DNA of 33,944 bases from Planctomycetota bacterium. Lineage in GTDB: Bacteria; Planctomycetota; Phycisphaerae; Phycisphaerales; SM1A02. Below the pieces are notes generated by a model, which was given only the letters and a program-made list of their open reading frames with translations, did no database searches and was not told the origin of the DNA. The stretch covers positions 1-33,944 of the forward strand of contig VGYB01000023.1 in assembly GCA_016873115.1 (NCBI GenBank), in the 5' to 3' direction. Shown one piece after another: positions 17,670 to 33,944 of the stretch; the stretch's first letter is position 1; each line of letters starts with the position of its first letter. Made by a program: the position numbers and the translations under genes.

Positions 17670-20600
17670 TCATGCCGCGATCACATCGCCGCGGTCGATC
17701 ATCAAGAGGGTGACCGAGATGCTGGCTGGCGGGAGCCCGGTGAGTTCGGCCAACGCAGCTCGATAGTCGCTCATCTGGTCCTGGTAGTGCTCGAGCACCT
17801 CTTCCCGGGGTTGACCGATCGAGCCGGTCTTGAAGTCAATCACCTGGGCGTGCGTGACGCGCGAACCATCGGTGCAAAGGACCACGCGGTCCATGCGACC
17901 ACCCAACCGACCACCCTCGCGGCCGCGTCGCAAGCGCTGGAAGGGCAGCTCGCCGTGCACTGACCATCGCCCCGAGCCCTTGGGCTTCGCCAGCGCAGTG
18001 CCGACGGGGCCGGCCAGGGAGCGCCGTGCGAGCTCGACGGCTGCCGCGAGTTCAGTCGCAGGGACCGGCGAGCGCAGCTCGGCCTGCACGAGTTCGTGAG
18101 CCCGGGCGATGGCTGCGTCATCAAGGCCAGGGGCCCGAGTCGGATCAGCAGCCTCGTTGGACCAGGTGACCTGCCGCAGCAGCGCGTGCACGATGGTGCC
18201 GCGCCGCATGGCGATCGGATCGCTGCCAGCCTCAGGAAGCACGACCCGAACTGCTTGCGCAGCCGGATCGGACGGTCCGTGTGTGACGGTTGGAATCGTT
18301 CGCGTGGTTGCGGTGGCACCTTCCTGCTGGCCTCCGTCAGGCTGCCGGCCGGAGGCACCGCCACTGGCCTCAACCAACGCGGCGGCAACCTGTGCGGAGG
18401 TGGTGCCGTTGCCCCAGAAGGGCTTGGTACGGTCTCCACCGACAGCGAATGCACCCCTGTAGGCATCTCCGAATCCGTCGATCGACACGCGCAACAACCA
18501 GAGTGGCGTGAGCTTGGGTTCATCGGACTGCGTTGGCTCAGTACAGACCAAGTGCACCCCGGACTTGGCTCGGGTGAGCGCGACATAGAACGCCGAGAGG
18601 CCGTCGAAGAGTTCGATGACGCGAGACTCGGTGTTGATGGCGGACAGCAGTGGACTGCGCTCGGCAAGGTCCTTGCGCACGACCGGCCCGATGACCAGCG
18701 GCGCACCGCCCGGGCCATCGTTGATGGAGGCCCACGCACCGCTGGTCGCCGTGACCTCGTCGAGCGCATCATCGAGGGTGGGCAGGACCACTTCGTCGAA
18801 CTCGAGTCCCTTGCTCGCGTGCACCGTCATCACACGGATGCGATCGCCACTGACGGTGCGAGAGCCCGTGGACCGAACCAGGCGGACGAAGCGCTCTGGC
18901 CGGCTTGCCATGTCGGCTGGTGCCGTGGCCGCCAGCGCAAGGACCTGCTTCACGCGCACGCGGTCGCGTGCGCTCGAGAGCGGCGAGAGTGCGTGGGCGA
19001 TCTCTTCCAGCCACGGCATCAGACCGCGCTCATGCAGGGCTTGACGAATGGACGCACCAAGGCGCTCACACGCGAAGGCCGAGCTGTACTCGGGAATCTT
19101 CACGATGCCGTCGAGCGCCGTGCGGGCAGCCTCCTGCGTGACCATCAGCAGTGCGGCCTTGTCGAGCGGCTGCTCGGCAATCCGCAGCAAGGCCATGATC
19201 ACGAGCACAGCCATCGAATCCATGAGCGAGCCACGACCCTCGTCGCTGGAACCCACGCCGAGCTGGCGCAGCGCTTGCACCACTTCCCCGATCTGCTTGT
19301 TGGTGTTCACGAGGATGGCGATCGTGTCCTGCGGGCGCTGCTGGCTGGCAGCCACGGCCACGCGTGCGGCTGTTGCCGACCACGACTCCTCGGGCAGTGT
19401 TCCCCAGGCCGAGATCGCCGATGGCTTGCCCTGCAGGCGCGGTGCACTCTCATGCGGCACGAAGGTCCAGTCAGCCACGACCCGGTCGATGGGGAAGCTC
19501 GCCACGGTGCCGGGGGCGTCGATCCCTGCCGCCTGCAGCGCCGCGTGGTGCTGACCTGGATCGATCGCGGCACGGTCGATCGACTGCAAGCGATCGGCCA
19601 GCGTGAGCGTGGCGGAGGAGCCAAAGACCGCGTTGACGAGCGCCATGACTTCCGGATGCGAGCGCTGGCTCACCGCAAGCTGCACATCCGAATCGAGTCT
19701 GCTGGCGCGCTGCTCGCGGATCCCACCGATGAGTGCTGGCGTACCCCCGCGCCAACCATAGATCGACTGCTTGGGATCACCCACCATGATGAACCGGCGC
19801 TCGTTCTCGCTGGCGAAGATCTCGTCCATGAAGGGCGCGAGCACGCTGTACTGGTTTGGGCTCGTGTCCTGGCATTCGTCGATGGCCAGGTCCTGGATCG
19901 CGCAGTCAAGGCGGTATCGCATCTCGTTGAGGCCATCGCTGCCTGCGCCCCCCAGCCAGTGGGCACGGGCAATCGCAGCCCCGATCTCTTCGAAGGAGTA
20001 GCGCCCCTCGGCGTGACGGATGGCAGCGGCGTGCTCGTTGAAGCCGCGCGCGAGCTCGACGCAGCCGGCGATGCGCTGCTTGATGAGCTTGGTTTCGATG
20101 GCCAGCGCATGATTCATGAGCCGCTGCACGCACCGGACGAGTTCGGGATCGGGATCGATCTTGGAGTACGGCCCGCCAGCGGCAATCGATGCTGCAAAGT
20201 TGATCCCAGGCACCTTGCGCCAATGGCCGCGGGTGGCCTCGGTCATGAGGTTGTTGCGGCCCTTGACCCAGTTCTTGTTCGGGGAACCGCTCTTGGTCAT
20301 GGGCAGGGGCGCGGCAGCAAGATCGCGCAGGGTGGCCTCGATCTCGGCCGCGGTCAGCAGTGTTGCGCCCTCGAAGAACTCGATGTGATCTGCCGTCAAG
20401 ACTCGCCACGGGGCATCACCAACGCCATGTCGCTCACCAAGATCGAGCAACGAGAGCGGCGTACGGATCGAGGTGAGCAAGGCATCGTGCAGCCGTGCCT
20501 TCGGTGCGCCGTCCGTGACCATGCGGACGAGCTCCCAGACCGCATCGGGCTTGGCTTCAAGGAGCTGCGAGAGCGCGAGCGCGCGTTGGGCGTGGTCCTG

Positions 20601-21044: not shown

Positions 21045-23959
21045 GCCGCACCCCCGATCATGGTGGCATCCTGCGTGGCTGCCGCTGCGTCCGGCGCAGC
21101 GGGCGCCAACCCGCGAACCCCGATGCCATGCATCGCTTGGACGAGAGGATCGTCGCTCAGGGGCGGCTTGCCGCTGGGGACAAAGTCATCCGCGCTTTGT
21201 GCAGCCTTCACCTTGGCAACGATGGTCGCCGCCATGTCGACGGCTTCCGCGAGCTGGTCCTCGGACCACTCCGCCAAGTTGATTTGTGCCAAATCCGGCT
21301 GCGCGGGCAAGGCGACCAGGCCCAGCAGCAGTGTGTCGCGAGGTATGTCGATCGTGGCCAGCAGTTCGCGATAGAGCGGCAACTGCAGGTCGGTCCAACC
21401 GGACCTCGTGCGATGCTTCGACGGATCCGCTGGCTCGGAGCTGGTCTTGTAGTCGAGCGCGGCCCATTGACCGGTGCGGATGTTCTGATCCACGCGATCG
21501 ATGCGGCCGGTGAGGTGCAGGCCATCCTGATCGGGGAACATGGGTGCCGCGTGCTGACGCGATCCGAGCGATGCGGCCCCATCATCACCGATCGGCTCAA
21601 GAGCCATGGTTTCAGGATCGACCTCCGTCCTGCTCTCATGGGGCCCTGTCTGCACGGCGCGGGGTGCCGTAAAGGCCAACTCGACATGCTTGATCGCCCA
21701 ACCTTCCTGGGCCCATTCAGCCTGAACCCGCGCGAAGGCGGCCAGCCGCTCGCGAGCCATGCGCACCTGCACGACCACGGTGCCGTGCACGGATGCAGGG
21801 AGCCGCTGCGCGAGCACACGATCAAGCGCTGCATCAAGTTCACAGGCGATGATCTTGGGATCGGTCGTTGGTGTCGTGCGTGCCGCCTCAAGGTGACCCC
21901 ACTCCTGAAGTGCACTGTGCACCAGCGTCCCGAACGCCATCGCATCGAGCTCAAGCTGAAGATCATCGCGACGATCGGCCTTGAGGACCCCGGTGCGCAG
22001 GTACTCGTAGGGGCACCGAAGGTAGGTGGCGAACTGCGTGACCGACATGCGGGTGATGGCTGGCAGTACAGGTACCGAAGGGTGCGCAGAGAACCCCGAT
22101 ACGGCCTTCGACTCAAGCGGCCATGCAGCCAGCGATGAACGGCCATGATCCCCGGTCAGGGCCAGGGTGCGCCGAGCTTGGTCCGTGGAGCCGATCAGGA
22201 ACCGTGAAGGTCGCAGCGGCTCGCCATCGGCGTTCGTGGCCGGCACCCCGAACCACACCGATGTCTTGCGCTTGAGGAGACCATCCAGGATCCACGCATC
22301 GCGCGCACGCCGGGCGCGTGCACACGGCAGGCCGAGCGACTGGCGAAGCGAATCCGGCAACCACGGATCGACCGCGGCGGCTTCGGGAAGCAGGCCGTCG
22401 TTGGCTGAGAGGACGATCACATGCGGCGCATCGCACACACCCGCCTCGAGCCAACCCATGCATTCGATGCCCGTGCGTTCAGTGCTGGGCACATCCACTG
22501 CGCGTGCACTGGCCATGATCACCTCCACGAGCGTGCCAAGTGAGCAGGCAGAGAGCAGGGAAGCGGGCAGCTCGGCGAGCGTGAGGAGTGATCGGGCGAC
22601 TGCGACCGAAGCCGTGGCATCTCCCAGGGGAGCGTGTGGAGGCTGCAGCGTGATGAGGGCCGCATGCAGGGCGAGCAGACGCTCGCGGCCTGTCGAGGCA
22701 GCGACGATGGTCGCCAGCAGGGGCTGCATGGCCCCCAAGACTGGCTCCACGGCGCCATCGTGGTCTGGCTTGGGGAAGGTGACCAGCGGCTCATCGAGCC
22801 GGCGGACACCGGTCGAGGCGACATACAGCGTGAGTTGACGCAAGGCTGCATGGAGCCCAAGGCCGTGCAGGTGACGCTCGACCCAAGGATGACGAACCAG
22901 CGTGCCGAGGTTGAAGGCGGTTGGTTCTGCGAGCCACGCACTGATGGCACAGAGCACGAGTGCAGCCGACCCCTGGTCAGCCGTGCGTGTGGGCGGCAGT
23001 GCCACGGGGATCCCGACCGGCGACAGCGTGCGCGAGACGATGGCAGGATCCGTGGGGCTGAGTGCAGCGATTGCGACGGATCCTGCAGGGACGGGTTGCT
23101 CAAGGGCATTGAGCGCCTGAAGCACGACCGCAGGCTGGTCATCAAGACCGCCGACCCGGACGATGCGTTCAAGGCTGATCGGAGGACGCATGGCGCTCCA
23201 TGCCGCATGATCCGGGAAGCCGCCGTCAAGATTCGGAAGATCGGCATCGTGCACCACGATCTCGACCGTGATGCCACGATCAGCAAGCGCTGCCAGCAGC
23301 CGTCGCTCCATGGGATCGGGATCGGCAAGCAGGACGACCACACGCTCAAGGCCAGTCGTGGCGAGGTGCCCGCCATCGATGGCGCGTGCAGCGATCGCGT
23401 GCGGCAGGTCGAGCCCGTGGCGGGCAAGTTCAGCCATGGCTCGATCCATGACGGTCGCCAGAGCTGACCAGATTGATGAGGGGAAGAACTCGCCGAGTTC
23501 ACCCGCTTCGCCGCGGTCGCGGATCTGAGCACAGGTGAGCCCCGCGCGCGAGAGTTCCTGCGCCACGGCACTGATCCGCGTGGCCAGTGCAAGTGCGTTC
23601 GATTCGGGTGCAGCACTGCCCACGAGCGGTGCCACGACTTGGGGCGACTCCACGGTGAGTGAGCGAAGCGCTCCCAGGCACGCGAGCGTGATCGCCGCGT
23701 CGCTTGCAGCGGTTCGATCGGGCACGATGAGTTGGGCGATGGATCGGCCCGGTGTCAGGATCGTGGGCAGGAGCACCGGGCGGCCGGCACCCTCTTGAAG
23801 ATGGTGGGCCAGCGCCGACTGGGCACGCGAAGCCGGCACGATGACGATGGTCTGGGTGAGATCAAGGAACGCACCACCGGGCGCACCCGTGATGAGGTGA
23901 CGCGCCAGCGCGCGCGTGAGCGATGGGTCGGATGGCAGGGGAGTGACCTGGACAGGCAT
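21041..23959 (-). CDS. addB: AddB-like nuclease subunit
   Basis: 972 aa from ATG 23959 (MPVQVTPLPSDPSLTRALAR). The longer upstream frame is antisense to the DUF4126 gene and lacks homology-like sequence. The N-terminal part is an inactivated helicase-like domain, as in AddB (for example TIVIVPASRAQSALAHHLQE). Late features are SVTQFATYLRCPYEYLRTGV (about 647) and the nuclease motifs GRIDRVD (about 816) and ALDYKTS (about 833). AddB recognises Chi-like sequences and cuts one strand in known systems. I see only the CPYEYL Cys of the expected iron-sulfur set near the nuclease. AGGAG lies 14 nt upstream of the start. Confidence 0.87.
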   Translation of the reverse strand: MPVQVTPLPSDPSLTRALARHLITGAPGGAFLDLTQTIVIVPASRAQSALAHHLQEGAGRPVLLPTILTPGRSIAQLIVPDRTAASDAAITLACLGALRSLTVESPQVVAPLVGSAAPESNALALATRISAVAQELSRAGLTCAQIRDRGEAGELGEFFPSSIWSALATVMDRAMAELARHGLDLPHAIAARAIDGGHLATTGLERVVVLLADPDPMERRLLAALADRGITVEIVVHDADLPNLDGGFPDHAAWSAMRPPISLERIVRVGGLDDQPAVVLQALNALEQPVPAGSVAIAALSPTDPAIVSRTLSPVGIPVALPPTRTADQGSAALVLCAISAWLAEPTAFNLGTLVRHPWVERHLHGLGLHAALRQLTLYVASTGVRRLDEPLVTFPKPDHDGAVEPVLGAMQPLLATIVAASTGRERLLALHAALITLQPPHAPLGDATASVAVARSLLTLAELPASLLSACSLGTLVEVIMASARAVDVPSTERTGIECMGWLEAGVCDAPHVIVLSANDGLLPEAAAVDPWLPDSLRQSLGLPCARARRARDAWILDGLLKRKTSVWFGVPATNADGEPLRPSRFLIGSTDQARRTLALTGDHGRSSLAAWPLESKAVSGFSAHPSVPVLPAITRMSVTQFATYLRCPYEYLRTGVLKADRRDDLQLELDAMAFGTLVHSALQEWGHLEAARTTPTTDPKIIACELDAALDRVLAQRLPASVHGTVVVQVRMARERLAAFARVQAEWAQEGWAIKHVELAFTAPRAVQTGPHESRTEVDPETMALEPIGDDGAASLGSRQHAAPMFPDQDGLHLTGRIDRVDQNIRTGQWAALDYKTSSEPADPSKHRTRSGWTDLQLPLYRELLATIDIPRDTLLLGLVALPAQPDLAQINLAEWSEDQLAEAVDMAATIVAKVKAAQSADDFVPSGKPPLSDDPLVQAMHGIGVRGLAPAAPDAAAATQDATMIGGAA

Positions 23960-24031: not shown

Positions 24032-24718
24032 GTGGATTCCGATTCGGTCAGCATCCTGTCGCTTGTGGTCGCCGCCGTCCTGGGGGTGGGCCTCAGTGCC
24101 GCTGCGGGATTTCGGGTCTTCGTTCCCCTCCTTGGGGCAGGGGTCGCCGTTCGGGTGGGGTGGCTGTCGCCCGGCGAGTCCCTGGAGTGGATCGGCTCCA
24201 CGCCGGCTCTGGTTGCCTTTGGCCTGGCGTGCTTGGTCGAGTTGACAGGCAGCCTGATTCCAGCGGTTGATCACGCCATCGATGCCATCGCGGCACCCAT
24301 GTCGGCTGCTGCCGGCAGCATCCTCATGGCCGTCCAGATGTGCGACCAACTGGGGCTGGGTGTGAGCGAGCAGCTGGCCGGCATGGAGGGCGTCCGTGAA
24401 CTCAGTCCACTCGTGCTCTGGTCGGTCGCCATCATCGTTGGTGGCGGCTTGGCGCTGGGCACGCATGCTGCCGCCGCCGTGGGGCGAGCAGGTTCGACGG
24501 TCTCGACGGCAGGGCTTGCCAATCCGATCTATGCCGCTGCGGAGTCGTTCACCTCGGTCGTCGCGACGGCCTTGGCGATCACGCTCCCTGCATGTTGCGT
24601 GATCATGGTGCTCCCGCTGGCGATCGTCCTCGTGCTCATCGTGCTGCGCCGACGCAAGGCCAGGCGTGCGGCCGCAGCGGCAGCCGTCACGGCACCGACA
24701 TCCACACCGAACTCATGA
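24032..24718 (+). CDS. DUF4126 family membrane protein
   Basis: 228 aa from GTG 24032; a GTG at 23987 in the same frame would add 15 residues that include the proposed -10 box. The family signature LGVGLSAAAGFRVFVPLLGA opens the protein, with several hydrophobic segments (LSLVVAAVLGVGL, PALVAFGLACLVELTG, LVLWSVAIIVGGGLALGTHA, ALAITLPACCVIMVLPLAIV then LVLIVL) and a basic, Ala-rich tail. Inner-membrane protein of unknown function. Convergent with the DUF3553 gene, 9 bp apart; divergent from addB. Confidence 0.8.
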   Translation: MDSDSVSILSLVVAAVLGVGLSAAAGFRVFVPLLGAGVAVRVGWLSPGESLEWIGSTPALVAFGLACLVELTGSLIPAVDHAIDAIAAPMSAAAGSILMAVQMCDQLGLGVSEQLAGMEGVRELSPLVLWSVAIIVGGGLALGTHAAAAVGRAGSTVSTAGLANPIYAAAESFTSVVATALAITLPACCVIMVLPLAIVLVLIVLRRRKARRAAAAAAVTAPTSTPNS

Positions 24719-26251: not shown

Positions 26252-29200
26252 TCGTCGCTGCGCGCGTCCGCGTCGAGCGATCCCCAGCCACCGCCGCCCG
26301 GCGTCGAGATCTGCACTCGGTCTCCCGCCTTCAGTGCTGTGGTGCCCACGCCTGCGAGCGGCATGCGAACCGTGCCACGCACGAGCCACTGCTCGCCGAC
26401 GGCACCCGCCCGGCCACCAGCCATGCCATAGGGCCCGCTGGCCCGGTGCTGGCCGATGATGCTGCAGGTCACTGGCTCGAGGAAGAGCAGTTCGCGCTCG
26501 ATGCCCTCGCCGCCATCATGGATCCCTGCGCCACCGCTGCCATGGCGCAGAGCAAAGCGCATGAGCCGCACCGGATACCGCGACTCGAGCACCTCGGCAT
26601 CCGTGATGCGCGTGTTGGTCATGTGCGTGTGCACGCCGCTCTCGCCCGGGCCGAGGAAACTTGCGCCTGAACCACCGGCGATCGTTTCGTAGAAGCCAAA
26701 GTGTGCTGCACCGAAGATGAGGTTGTTCATCGTGCCTTGGCTGCAGGCCGAGGCACCGAGCAGGCGCAACAAGGCATCGACCACACGCTGGCTGGTCTCG
26801 GTGTTGCCCGCACCGACCGCGGGGCAGGCTGCAGGATCGGCATGGAACGGTGGGTTCAGGAGTCCCGGCGGCACGATGAGCTCGACTGCATCGAGGAAGC
26901 CCTCGTTCAGGGGCAGGACGCCCGCCCGGATCGGATCGTGTGCGCCGGCCATCACCCGGAGCGCGTAGAGCGTGGCGCTGCGGATCACGGCCATCGGAGC
27001 GTTGAAGTTGCCTGCATGGATCGCACCTGACCCCGTGAAGTCGATCGTCACGCGCTGCTGCGCCTGGTGGACGGCAAGCGGTCCGTCGGATGCACCATGC
27101 GGGCGTCGCGAGAGCCGCACGCAGATGGGTGTGCCATCATCGAGCAGCTCGGTCACGGTTCCCTCCGGCACCTGGGCGAGGGCACCGAACGCGGCGTGGC
27201 GGGATCGCGAGCGCAGGAGTTCGAGGGCCGGCTGGAATCGATCACCGAACCGCGTGGCCGTCGCGCGCATGCGCTCGACACCCGTGTGGTTGGCGGCAAT
27301 CTGGGCCCGCAGGTCATCGAGGTTCTGCTGCAGGGCGCGGGTGGGATGGGGCGCATGGCGCAGGAGCCCGGTCACCGCATCAAGGCAGTCGACGCCGCCG
27401 CGCACGACATGGGTTGGTGGAAGGACGACCGCCTCCTCCGCGAGGGACCGTGCGAAGGGCGGCATGCTGCCCGGTTCGATGCCGCCGAGCTCCGCGTGGT
27501 GCGCTCTCGTGGCCGCGTAGCCAAGCAGGGTGCCGCCGTCCGAACGCTCGAAGATCGGCGTGACGACCGTGACATCGGGCAAGTGGCTGCCGCCGAAGGC
27601 CGGGTGATTGGTGACGGCGACATCGCCGGGACCGAGTTCGAGCGTGGAGGCGATCGCCCGCACGCACGCACCGAGTGCACCCAAGTGCACCGGCAGGTGC
27701 GGGGCATTCACGATGAGTGCACCGTCGGCATCCAGGAGTCCGCACGAGTAATCGAGCCGGTCGCGCACATTCACGCTGACGGCGGTCGCACGCAAGGCTT
27801 CACCCATCGATTCTGCGGCGCCATGCAGGGCAGCGGCGACCAGGGCTTCAGTCGCGATCGCTGGTGCAGCGTGGGTCAGTGGCGTGGAGCGTTCAAGGAC
27901 GACGCCACCATCGAGCGTGCGAGCGGTCCATCCCTCCGGCACGACCACCGTGCAGTGGTCGAGCGCCAGACCATGCGTGGTTGCGGTCGTGGTCACCGAT
28001 GCCTCATTGGGCAGCGTCCAGGCATCGTCGGCCAGGTCTTGGTGGCGCACCCACTCGATCGTCTCGTTGCCATGCGGCGGTTCGAAGCCGAAGATGGATC
28101 GGTACTGCGCACGGAACGCTCCACGCAATTCAGGCAGGCTGGTGGTCGAGGCCGGGATGTCGATGATCGCTTCCTGATTCGCGGGGCGAACGCCGAGCGA
28201 GTCGCCGGGCGCCCGGTCTGCCGTGGCAGCCCACTCGGCGAGTCCCATGCGCAGTGAGCGCACCTCGATCGTGCCGGTACGGCTGGCACCGATCCCTTGC
28301 GCACTCAGGAGCCCGGCGCGCGCAGGGACCAGCACGCGACGCATGCCCAGGAGTTCGGCGAGTGCGCAGGCATGCATGCCACCAGCGCCACCGAAGGCGA
28401 CCAGCGTGTGCGTCGATGGATCAAGTCCTCGCCGCGCGCTGACCCGGCGGATGGCTTCGGCCATGCGCGCATCGGCCACGGTGAGGAACGCCCGCAGCAT
28501 CGTGGGCACATCCATCGATTCCCGGCGATCCACGCGCCACCGTTCGCAGAGTTCCTGCGCGCGGGCGTTGGCCGCATCGCGGTCGAGTGCGAACGGGAAG
28601 CGTGCGCCGTCCAGATGACCGAGGACCAGATGCGCATCGGTGATCGTGAGCGGACCACCCATGCCGTAGCAGGCCGGTCCTGGTGAACTGCCCGCGCTGC
28701 GCGGACCGACGCACACCTGGCCATCGATCAGATCGAGCACGCTTCCGCCGCCGGCGGCCACGCTCTCCACGGCCACGCTCGGGCTGGCGAGTTGCGCGGT
28801 CCCGAGCCTCGTGGTGGGGTTGAGCTCAAGATCATCAATCAGCCGGGCCACATCCGTGCTCGTGCCGCCCATGTCGAAGGCGATCGCCGGCAGGAGCCCG
28901 GCCGCACGCCCGGCAGCGCGCGCGCCAGCGACGCCACCGGCTGGTCCGCTGAAGAGACTGTCCTTGGGGGTGAAGAGATCGGCAGGGGCAAGGGCACCGG
29001 CGCTCGTCATGACGCGCAGCGGTGCGCCATGGAGCTCCTCACGGACCTGGTGCAGGTACTCGGCTACGGGACGCGAGAGCTGCGCATTCACGCAGGTCAC
29101 GCGCGCGCGTGCTTCGAACCCGATGGTTCGACTGAGTTCGTGGCTGAGGCTGATGGACTCGATGCCCTCTTCGACCAGGAGCTTCCGGATGCGCAGTTCA

Positions 29201-29943
29201 TGGATCGGATTGCGCCAGGCGTGCAGCAGGCAGACCGCCACGGCACCCACACCGGTCTCGCGAGCGAACCGAGCGCAGTCCTTGATCTGGTCATGATCGA
29301 TCGGTTCGAGTTCGTTGCCGGCGGCGTCCATGCGACCACGCATGCCCATGACGAAGGCATGCGGTGGTGGATCGCGTACGACCCGCAGGGCGAAGAGGTC
29401 CGGCCGGCGCTGATCGCCGATGCGCAGCAGATCCTCGTGCCCTTCGTTGGTCACGAAGAGGACCGGGGTGATGGCACCTTCGAGCAGGGCATTGGTGCCG
29501 CGGGTCGTGCCGAGCCGAACCTCCATCGCTGGCAGTCGCTTCCAGAGGGGCGTGCGGGTCAGGAGGTGCGCGGCCAGGGCGGGGGAGCTGCGTCGTGGAT
29601 CGATGACGGCTTGGCAGGGGGTACCGCGCGGCCATTCCGGTGGGATCGCTTGCGCGAGGCGGAGCATGCGGCGACCATCGGCTGCAGGTTCGTCACGATC
29701 GATGAGCAGGGCATCGGTGGTCGCCCCATGCAGCACGCTGATCGTGGTGCGGCTGAGGAAGCGTGCGATCGGAGGAAGCGTCGGCAGTTCCGCCACCACG
29801 CCGCGGTCCTCGACCGTGATGGTGGTCCGGATCAAGCCGCTCGACAGCACCTTCGCCGAGCGCGTGGATCCATCCGGTGCAACCGCCACGGCATCCGTGA
29901 AGGTGCCTCCGACATCGAGCGCAATCTGCCAGGGACGGGTCAT
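26233..29943 (-). CDS. Fused hydantoinase A/B protein (5-oxoprolinase-like)
   Basis: 1236 aa from ATG 29943 ([20 protein letters not shown]); upstream codons lack homology-like sequence. The HyuA half (about 1-640) has the ATPase-fold motifs GGTFTD (12-17), [22 protein letters not shown] and [13 protein letters not shown]. The HyuB half (about 690-1230) has [55 protein letters not shown] and a C-terminal GGGGWGS. Fusion of both halves is the arrangement of eukaryotic 5-oxoprolinase and many bacterial homologues; it cleaves cyclic amides such as 5-oxoproline with ATP. The substrate is unproven. No transporter or racemase gene adjoins it. Confidence 0.88.
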
Positions 29944-30040: not shown

Positions 30041-31318
30041 ATGGGCCTTGGACTGGACCTGATCTACGGAGGGGCGGCGCTCCTCAGCAGCCCGGTCTGG
30101 GTCGCGACGATGGCGGCGCGGGGCAAGCTGCGCACGGACTGGCTGGCGCGGCTGGGCCGGTGCGAAGCATGGCCCCGAACCCGCCGTGATGGCCAGGTCG
30201 TGCCGCGGGTCCTGATCCACGCCGTCAGCGTGGGCGAGGTCAACGCGGTGCGCGAACTGGTCGCGGACCTCGCCCGGGACCACGAGATCGCCGTCAGCGT
30301 GACCACCGACACCGGCATCGCCCGAGCCCGCAGCGTCTTTGCCGCGCCCGTGCGTGTGGTGCGGTACCCCTTTGATGTCTCGTGTGCCGTCCGCAGCGTG
30401 CTCGATGCCGTGCAGCCCGACGCGGTGGCCCTGGCCGAGCTCGAACTCTGGCCGAACTTCACCCAGGCGTGCGAGCGCCGCGGCATCCCGATGGCGATCG
30501 TGAACGGTCGGCTCTCGGAGCGCTCGTTCCTCCGGTCCCTCAGGATCCTGCCGCTGTTGTCACCGATGTTCCGCTGCGTGGCTGCTGTCGGGGCGCAGAC
30601 CGATGACTACGCCGAACGATTCCGTGCGATGGGCGTGGCGCACGACCGTGTGCAGGTCGTGGGCACGATGAAGTGGGATACTGCCCGGATTGCCGACACC
30701 GTCGACGGTGCCGATGCCCTCGCCGCCGCCATGGGCGTTGATCGCTCGAAGCCGCTCGTCGTGGCGGGCTCGACCGAGCCGCTGGAGCACGCGCTCCTTC
30801 GCGATGCCGTCCCCGCCGGGGTGCAACTCCTGTGCGCCCCGCGCAAGCCGGAGTGGTTCGACGATGCCGCGCGCGAACTTGCCGGGTGCGCGCGCCGTTC
30901 GACCGGTGCATGCGGCAGTTCGACGGGGCGTTTCCTCCTCGACACGATCGGTGAGTTGCGTATGGCGTATGCGTTGGCTGATGTCGTGGTGGTTGGGCGC
31001 AGTTTCGGCGAGCTCCACGGCAGCGACATGATCGAACCGGTCGCCTTGGGCAAGGCCACGATCATCGGTCCGCGCTGGGGCGATTTCGCCGAACCGGCGC
31101 AGGCGCTGCTGGCGGCCGGCGGTCTGAAGCAGGTCGAGCGGGGCGAACTTGCCGCGGCGCTCTCGGGCCTGCTCAACGATCCAGCGCATCGTGAGCGCAT
31201 GGCAGGGGCGGGGCGCACCGTGATCCGCGCGCGCCAGGGGGCCACCGCGCGCAACGCGGCGCTGGTCCGGGCGGTGCTGGCTGCACGGCAGGGGAGCACC
31301 ACCCATGCGCGAGGGTGA
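30041..31318 (+). CDS. waaA: 3-deoxy-D-manno-octulosonic acid (Kdo) transferase
   Basis: 425 aa. An N-terminal membrane-associating segment (about 1-25) precedes the GT30 catalytic domain: HAVSVGEV (60-67, containing the family's catalytic Glu), ALAELELWPNF, IVNGRLSERS, VVGTMKWD, VVAGSTEPLEH, then the C-terminal ALADVVVVGRSFGELHGSDM and IEPVALGKATIIGP. It adds Kdo to lipid A precursor at the inner face of the cytoplasmic membrane, so this organism makes Kdo-containing lipopolysaccharide. First gene of a probable waaA-thiL-tsaE run; thiL starts 14 bp before its stop. Confidence 0.9.
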   Translation: MGLGLDLIYGGAALLSSPVWVATMAARGKLRTDWLARLGRCEAWPRTRRDGQVVPRVLIHAVSVGEVNAVRELVADLARDHEIAVSVTTDTGIARARSVFAAPVRVVRYPFDVSCAVRSVLDAVQPDAVALAELELWPNFTQACERRGIPMAIVNGRLSERSFLRSLRILPLLSPMFRCVAAVGAQTDDYAERFRAMGVAHDRVQVVGTMKWDTARIADTVDGADALAAAMGVDRSKPLVVAGSTEPLEHALLRDAVPAGVQLLCAPRKPEWFDDAARELAGCARRSTGACGSSTGRFLLDTIGELRMAYALADVVVVGRSFGELHGSDMIEPVALGKATIIGPRWGDFAEPAQALLAAGGLKQVERGELAAALSGLLNDPAHRERMAGAGRTVIRARQGATARNAALVRAVLAARQGSTTHARG

Positions 31319-32850: not shown

Positions 32851-33378
32851 TCAGGCCGTCGGTTCGTTGGGCTGGCGCTGGCCTTCGGGACTGACGGCGT
32901 AGATCTGGAACTTGTGGCCCACGGGTGACCAGCCGAGCTGGCGGCAGATGCGGTCGCGCAGCGCGGTGAGTTCCGCGCTCTGGAATTCGACGAGCCGGCC
33001 GGTCTTCATGCAGACCATGTAGTCGCGCGGTTCCTTGCCGTAGATGAGCTGGTAGTGGGCCTGCTTCGAATCAAAGAGCGCCTGCGTGATGATGCCGGCA
33101 TCCTGCAAGAGCTTGATCGTGCGGTAGAGCGTGGCCTTGCTCACGCGGTGGCCGCGCTGGCGCATGGACAGCAGGAGTTCCTCGACCTCGAAGAGCCCAT
33201 CGCGCGCGATGATCGCGTCGAGCACATCGGCGCGTTCGACCGTGTACTTCAGGCCCTTGGTGCGCAGGAAGCGCCGGAAGACGCTGCACAAGGGTGCCAT
33301 GACCGGGCCGCTGGCCGCTGCACCAGGCAACGATGCCGGCGTGGCGACGGTGGGCGTGGATGGGCTCGAGCGAGGCAT
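32851..33378 (-). CDS. Fur-family transcriptional regulator, atypical metal sites
   Basis: 175 aa. A low-complexity N-terminus (1-26) precedes a Fur winged helix: FRRFLRTKGLKYTVERADVL, FEVEELLLSMRQRGHRVSKA and the recognition helix TLYRTIKLLQDAGII. The C-terminal dimerisation part is recognisable (HYQLIYGKEPRDYMVCMKTG, RLVEF) but the canonical HHDHxxC reads PRDYMVC and the CxxC pair is Cys123-Thr126. The family normally binds iron, zinc or manganese, or senses peroxide; sensing here must differ or be lost. The ATG at 33378 has TACGAT 6 nt upstream on the minus strand. Confidence 0.85.
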   Translation of the reverse strand: MPRSSPSTPTVATPASLPGAAASGPVMAPLCSVFRRFLRTKGLKYTVERADVLDAIIARDGLFEVEELLLSMRQRGHRVSKATLYRTIKLLQDAGIITQALFDSKQAHYQLIYGKEPRDYMVCMKTGRLVEFQSAELTALRDRICRQLGWSPVGHKFQIYAVSPEGQRQPNEPTA

Positions 33379-33502: not shown

Positions 33503-33530
33503 ACCGCCGATAATATGTGTTATGTAAAAT
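33503..33530 (+). other. dif: dif site (XerC/XerD recombination site)
   Basis: The 28 bases split as ACCGCCGATAA (XerC-type arm, 33503-33513), TATGTG (central hexamer, 33514-33519) and TTATGTAAAAT (XerD-type arm, 33520-33530). The XerD arm matches 10 of 11 bases of E. coli dif (TTATGTTAAAT); the XerC arm keeps the inner ATAA; overall 19 of 28 match. Such an A/T-rich motif is striking in this high-GC DNA. It is where XerCD resolves chromosome dimers, normally at the replication terminus, and a known target for Xer-using mobile elements. Confidence 0.82.
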
Positions 33531-33777: not shown

Positions 33778-33944
33778 ATGCTCACCTCGGAAACCAAGAA
33801 CCGAATCAACGCCTGCCGCAACATTCTCGTCGGCAAGCTCCCACTGCCCACCGACCAGGTCGAGCTCATCACCCTCGCGCTCATCTACAAGTTCATGGAC
33901 GACCTCGACGAGGAATCCGTGACGATGGGCGGCAAGCGCAGCTT
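33778..33944 (+). CDS. hsdM: Type I restriction-modification methylase (HsdM-like), partial
   Basis: ATG 33778 begins MLTSETKNRINACRNILVGK and continues LPLPTDQVELITLALIYKFM then DDLDEESVTMGGKRS before the window ends. This matches the N-terminal helical domain of N6-adenine methylases of type I systems (TSETKxxIDxARDILVGKxP, ALIYKFMDDMD). The SAM-binding motifs lie beyond the window. The gene starts 248 bp after the dif site, in compositionally different DNA, and probably belongs to a mobile or recently gained R-M locus. Confidence 0.82.
   Translation, partial: MLTSETKNRINACRNILVGKLPLPTDQVELITLALIYKFMDDLDEESVTMGGKRS

Follow-up and report, generated by a model that had tools for sequence, protein, structure and literature searches.

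A probable chromosomal dif site beside a Fur-family gene in a Phycisphaerales bacterium and its relatives

The closest described counterparts of the locus studied here are the XerCD/dif systems of E. coli and B. subtilis. Like them, it combines a 28-bp site of 11-6-11 layout and near-identical XerD arm with two Xer genes and an FtsK gamma domain in the same genome, and in relatives the site lies near a change in GC skew with G-rich octamers polarised toward it. In XerS/difSL and XerH/difH, as described in a 2017 review of Xer systems (PMC5357621), a single tyrosine recombinase acts at the terminus, whereas here two Xer genes accompany a classical XerCD-type site. The same review is the source of the FtsK/KOPS model applied below, and the passages on dif, XerC and KOPS in PMC10591338 give the general model. 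With IMEX and the dif modules of plasmids, the locus shares the accessory genes that lie directly beside dif in this genus. Unlike in IMEX, the genome holds no second dif copy and thus element boundaries cannot be drawn.

According to Kono et al. 2011 (PMC3025954), the one large dif survey that the literature search returned, dif was predicted for 641 organisms from 16 phyla, and prediction failed in Planctomycetes (0/1 genome) and Cyanobacteria (0/5). PMC7901474 names planctomycetes solely in a reference, and the search, which had sparse coverage of subscription journals, returned no paper that by its title, opening abstract lines or inspected passages reports a planctomycete dif. The present site is very likely a dif of an ordinary kind, the same as those predicted by Kono et al., and is notable for its phylum, in which that genome-wide survey found none.

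Sequence of the 28-bp site

Positions 33503-33530 of the window (the whole stretch of DNA that was analysed, 33,944 nucleotides) read ACCGCCGATAA-TATGTG-TTATGTAAAAT, 28 bp in an 11-6-11 arrangement (Table 1). The first-pass annotation had proposed a dif site of this layout, with a near-perfect XerD arm and the inner ATAA of the XerC arm, and its coordinates and arm descriptions proved exact on direct reading. The XerD arm of E. coli is TTATGTTAAAT, from which the right arm differs by one base (10/11 identical). The left arm is less like its E. coli counterpart, with 6/11 bases identical, the inner ATAA included. In a profile built from 28 dif sequences, the C at position 5 of the left arm and the ATAAT were invariant or nearly so. 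The central TATGTG was unchanged in all four same-genus genomes carrying dif; outside the genus the centre was variable except for its first T.

The 28-mer has a GC content of 32%, compared to 66% for the window. The + strand of the window has a single copy of ATAAN6TTAT, a motif identical to its reverse complement. With up to three mismatches, the pattern ATAAN6TTATGTNAAAT matched the window once, whilst shuffled windows searched with the same pattern and tolerance gave a mean of 0.02 matches (two of 100 shuffles held one). Within the whole genome (2,355,203 bases, or 2.36 Mb, in 87 contigs; 95.9% complete), the core pattern gave a single match at up to two mismatches and the reversed pattern gave none.

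Table 1. Positions of dif, neighbouring genes and polar octamers in the window
Feature	Coordinates	Strand	Remark
XerC-side (left) dif arm, ACCGCCGATAA	33503..33513	+	direct reading
dif central region, 6 bp, TATGTG	33514..33519	+	direct reading
XerD-side (right) dif arm, TTATGTAAAAT	33520..33530	+	direct reading; conserved among relatives
Fur-family regulator gene	32851..33378	-	conserved left neighbour of dif; Pfam FUR 4.4e-23
Type I restriction methylase (HsdM-like) gene start	33778..33942	+	accessory right neighbour; cut by contig end
GGCAGGGG, KOPS-like candidate 1/7	20302..20309	+	points toward dif
GGCAGGGG, KOPS-like candidate 2/7	23934..23941	+	
GGCAGGGG, KOPS-like candidate 3/7	24136..24143	+	
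GGCAGGGG, KOPS-like candidate 4/7	28981..28988	+	
GGCAGGGG, KOPS-like candidate 5/7	29613..29620	+	
GGCAGGGG, KOPS-like candidate 6/7	31201..31208	+	
GGCAGGGG, KOPS-like candidate 7/7	31287..31294	+	

Conservation among relatives and across the phylum

When this genome and 60 relatives were searched, 42/61 matched ATAAN6TTATGTNAAAT with at most one mismatch, against 3/61 for the reversed pattern. Exactly one site was present in 37 of the 42, and this short pattern found more than one in the remaining five. In the single-contig genome G056 there were three matches, of which the exact one was taken as dif. Within the genus, four of the eight other genomes carried the site, with an identical 21-mer in all four; those without a match were G001 (74% complete), G002 (81%), G005 (95%) and G008 (93%). 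The first-pass annotation had held that absence from close relatives would count against a dif site. Such absence was observed in part, in these four and in 19/60 relatives overall at the one-mismatch tolerance, though these are drafts.

A longer consensus, with up to three mismatches, matched 54/111 family genomes (this one included) at one site each, and its reversed form matched 0/111. The other 57 family genomes had no match at this stringency; 54/111 is a lower bound, as the longer consensus misses genomes that the short pattern recognises, such as G003, G006 and G007. Certain clades carry the right-arm variants TTCTGT and TTACGT. When the phylum was searched with the short motif at one mismatch, reversed matches equalled forward ones in number in several A/T-rich genomes, and a longer consensus was therefore used instead. 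This phylum consensus, AMGTCCGATAATN5TTATGTTAAAT, was derived from the sites found here and searched with up to three mismatches. It matched 143/392 Planctomycetota genomes, the members of the order counted in, whilst its reversed form matched 2/392. Eight of the 143 had more than one site on a count made by eye.

Second dif-like sites were seen at G016:C92:81824 and in G333, G208, G177 and G289. They may represent second replicons, elements, mixed bins or chance matches. Two genomes carried pairs of same-strand dif-like sites, 14.2 kb apart in G127 (C1:3561729 and 3575899) and 8.7 kb apart in G345 (C1:2849513 and 2840802), and the second site of each pair has the same altered left arm, ACGTCTGATCA. 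These pairs are candidate Xer-integrated elements in one genus of another planctomycete family.

GC skew, polar octamers and partner genes

As the genome itself is in 87 contigs, the skew evidence comes from contigs of relatives, and by terminus we mean a zone of converging skew and polar motifs, not a proven meeting point of forks. GC skew was positive to the left and negative to the right of dif in 8/10 sampled family contigs. No change of sign across dif was seen in G015 (0.047, 0.042) or G010 (-0.022, -0.016). Eight of the ten relatives are consistent with the earlier placement of the window at the terminus, and these two are not. On G023:C3, 8/9 stretches left of dif were positive and 10/11 to the right were negative. 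The cumulative-skew maximum lay within 25 kb of dif in 7/10 contigs, where random placement would give 3.1/10 (P 0.009). The distances were at most ~0.1 kb in G029, 5.1 kb in G016, 7.8 kb in G020, 11.4 kb in G026, 20.5 kb in G010, 24.4 kb in G003 and 24.6 kb in G023, and 32-58 kb in G015, G034 and G033, with shallow maxima in several (G010, G026, G033) and a maximum at the contig end in G015.

We also examined single-contig genomes. In G056 (5,710,378 bp), skew was negative in 9/9 stretches from 0.30 to 2.44 Mb and positive in 7/8 from 2.46 to 5.22 Mb. The stretch that opens this record departs from the pattern in being positive. The two stretches flanking dif (5.42 Mb) were negative, placing the skew turn 20-200 kb before dif, between 5.22 and 5.40 Mb. 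The best DnaA match, at 2.44 Mb, lies near the other skew turn. With DnaA genes taken as origin markers and partly rounded lengths used for chromosome fractions, the distance from dif to the best DnaA match within the order was 0.485 of the chromosome in G017 (a single-contig genome of the same family), 0.478 in G056, 0.408 in G395 and 0.203 in G046. The global skew of G046, also a single contig, is irregular, yet its sign changes locally at dif. Outside the order, the distance was at least 0.40 in 6/22 single-contig genomes, and DnaA position thus gives no support to the phylum-wide sites as termini; either the DnaA genes are not origin markers there or many sites lie off the terminus. Each of the 38 genomes searched held two or more DnaA-family matches. 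Many single-contig records of one family open with a DnaA paralogue that is shorter and scores lower, and have the full-length match elsewhere.

Octamers were then ranked by strand bias toward dif in a discovery set of two genomes, G003 and G023. The top-ranked octamer, GGCAGGGG, occurred 47 times toward dif and never away. When validated on the window together with eight additional genomes, it pointed toward dif 51 times and away five times, whereas other permutations of its letters were split 1837 to 1159 (Fisher P 1e-6; 1e-5 without the window). Among the 23,578 octamers of the eight validation genomes it ranked 4th (44 to 5), indicating that GGCAGGGG is not unique and that further G-rich words are skewed too. 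The E. coli-type octamer GGGNAGGG was also skewed in validation (85 to 36), less cleanly than GGCAGGGG; the best octamer thus differs from that of E. coli. All seven copies in the window point toward dif with no reverse copy, a 7 to 0 count that covers the left side of dif only and is not significant alone (P 0.19). No polarity was seen near dif in G046 (2 to 4), and sampled stretches of G056 gave 13 to 1 on one arm and 7 to 6 on the other. By analogy with KOPS, GGCAGGGG is a candidate FtsK-orienting sequence.

The first-pass annotation had suggested looking for xerC and xerD, and four tyrosine-recombinase genes were found in the genome. The gene on C45 best matched TIGR02224 XerC at 332.4 bits, just under the NCBIfam cut-off of 335.15. 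That on C54, cut by the contig end, best matched TIGR02225 XerD at 232 bits against a cut-off of 329.6. A XerC and a truncated XerD are thus present, both scoring below their cut-offs, and an FtsK gamma domain is encoded on C1 (PF09397, 89 bits). The C21 gene is weakly Xer-like (50 bits). An integron integrase (G000:C47, L003:1435-2421; TIGR02249, 363 bits, cut-off 265) lies near a contig end.

On the E. coli model, the left arm would be the binding site of XerC and the right arm that of XerD. In a dimer of sister chromosomes, polar G-rich octamers, probably similar to GGCAGGGG, would serve as loading sites for FtsK, which would move toward dif from either side. Contact of its gamma domain with XerD would then activate strand exchange, and recombination between the two dif copies would resolve the dimer to two monomers.

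Fur neighbour, flanking genes and alternative readings

A search of genome contigs with the adjacent Fur-family protein returned 33 loci in other records. Planctomycete names on 31/33 of these records agree with the affiliation to Planctomycetota that had been read from the window. Using a relaxed pattern with at most one mismatch, 25/33 loci had a dif-like site, always upstream of Fur and in constant relative orientation, as the first-pass annotation had anticipated in proposing a search for the motif beside this gene. These counts are not independent of those from the 61 genomes because contigs overlap (e.g. L035, L037, L038, L039). No dif-like site was found at L036, L040, L049, L051, L057, L060, L061 and L067 (8/33). 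The L040 and L067 contigs begin inside Fur and hence have no upstream DNA to judge, whilst L051 and L061 showed no such site in 4.5-5.0 kb upstream of Fur. L036, L040 and L067 belong to the same-genus group, with no dif on those contigs. The L036 contig, filed under a Bacteroidia MAG, is probably mis-binned, since its Fur locus is that of this planctomycete genus (94% protein identity).

The flanks of dif were compared between the window and four sister loci. Against L035, L039 and L038, the alignment runs through Fur, breaks, and resumes for 61, 47 and 32 bp around dif, respectively. Against L037 it is unbroken from Fur to 5 bp beyond dif. To the right of dif nothing aligned past 15 bp between the window and L035, L037, L038 or L039, and no pair of sister loci had a right flank in common; L035 and L039 share 0.7 kb to the left. 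In these alignments dif stays constant while its surroundings turn over, the pattern to be expected if selection acts on the site itself. The right neighbour in the window is the start of an HsdM-like gene, a 55-aa piece 65.5% identical over its full length to N-6 DNA methylases of E. coli plasmids (56 records) and with no Pfam match. A search of the PDB with this piece returned two armadillo-type, designed-looking chains (E ~0.004), which were taken as chance matches. A Schlafen-type helicase and Cse1 lie to the right of dif in L038, and L039 has an ORF without a Pfam match on that side. On the left, L039 carries a Fic/DOC gene and L035 an ORF that resembles it by eye.

Other explanations of the site were considered. 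Lying in the promoter region of a Fur-family gene, the A/T-rich inverted repeat could be the autoregulatory operator of that regulator, in line with its partly palindromic sequence and its position upstream of Fur in all 25 linked loci, 43-92 bp away in several. Fur operators occur several per genome and close to the genes they regulate. This site is instead single copy with no regulon, and its distance from Fur ranges from about 0 to 3417 bp, with 1.2-3.4 kb and an intact site in 13/25 loci. Loci of other families (L006-L010, L033, L034), with flanks of at most 1.5 kb, had no detectable Fur homologue. An operator would also leave the 11-6-11 layout, skew change and converging octamers unexplained. 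With one site at a variable distance from Fur, the operator was set aside as highly improbable. Resemblance by chance in an A/T-rich intergenic spot would fit the absence of a match from about half of the family genomes at the chosen stringency, but the reversed controls (3/61, 0/111 and 2/392, against 42, 54 and 143 forward) make it the least credible of the explanations considered.

The site could also belong to a plasmid or mobile element, as a pdif or the attachment site of an Xer-using element, instead of being the host dif. In favour of this are its accessory neighbours: HsdM in the window, Fic/Doc in L039 with a similar ORF in L035, and the Schlafen-type helicase with Cse1 in L038. In 4/5 site-bearing loci of the genus (window, L035, L037, L038, L039) the contig also breaks off on the right of dif, 0.3-1.6 kb from it. 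The site is however the only one in its genome at up to two core mismatches, leaving no flanking pair. Neither the window nor the 33 Fur loci held a second dif-like site above a score of 12 on the 28-column profile; the main sites score highly there partly by construction, since many of the 28 sequences in the profile come from the same loci. Conservation across an order, the frequent chromosomal Fur neighbour and a position near the skew change likewise argue against an element. As two bounding dif-like sites were not found, we set this reading aside and consider it even less probable than the operator. We thus conclude, with a probability of about 0.94, that 33503-33530 is the chromosomal dif of this Phycisphaerales bacterium, as the first-pass annotation had proposed. 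The conclusion draws on the single copy and conservation of the site, its Fur linkage, the skew and octamers of relatives, and the Xer and FtsK genes.

The useful output is a dif profile for the order, a consensus that provides a lead for the phylum (143/392) and a candidate FtsK-orienting octamer. In work on draft genomes, these could aid the orientation of contigs and the marking of termini. Many planctomycetes divide without FtsZ, and the sites could help test whether they use ordinary Xer-FtsK dimer resolution.

Judging from the alignments, the right side of dif in this genus appears to be a hot spot of turnover. We regard as rather unlikely, though conceivable, an account in which dif serves here as a docking point. 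Xer-mediated or terminus-associated exchange would repeatedly swap defence and toxin-antitoxin genes (HsdM, Schlafen-type helicase with Cse1, Fic/Doc) beside it, leaving the dif sequence unchanged and regenerating one dif each time. In L039, the Fic/DOC reading frame (1621-2070) enters dif and stops at the TAA of the left arm.
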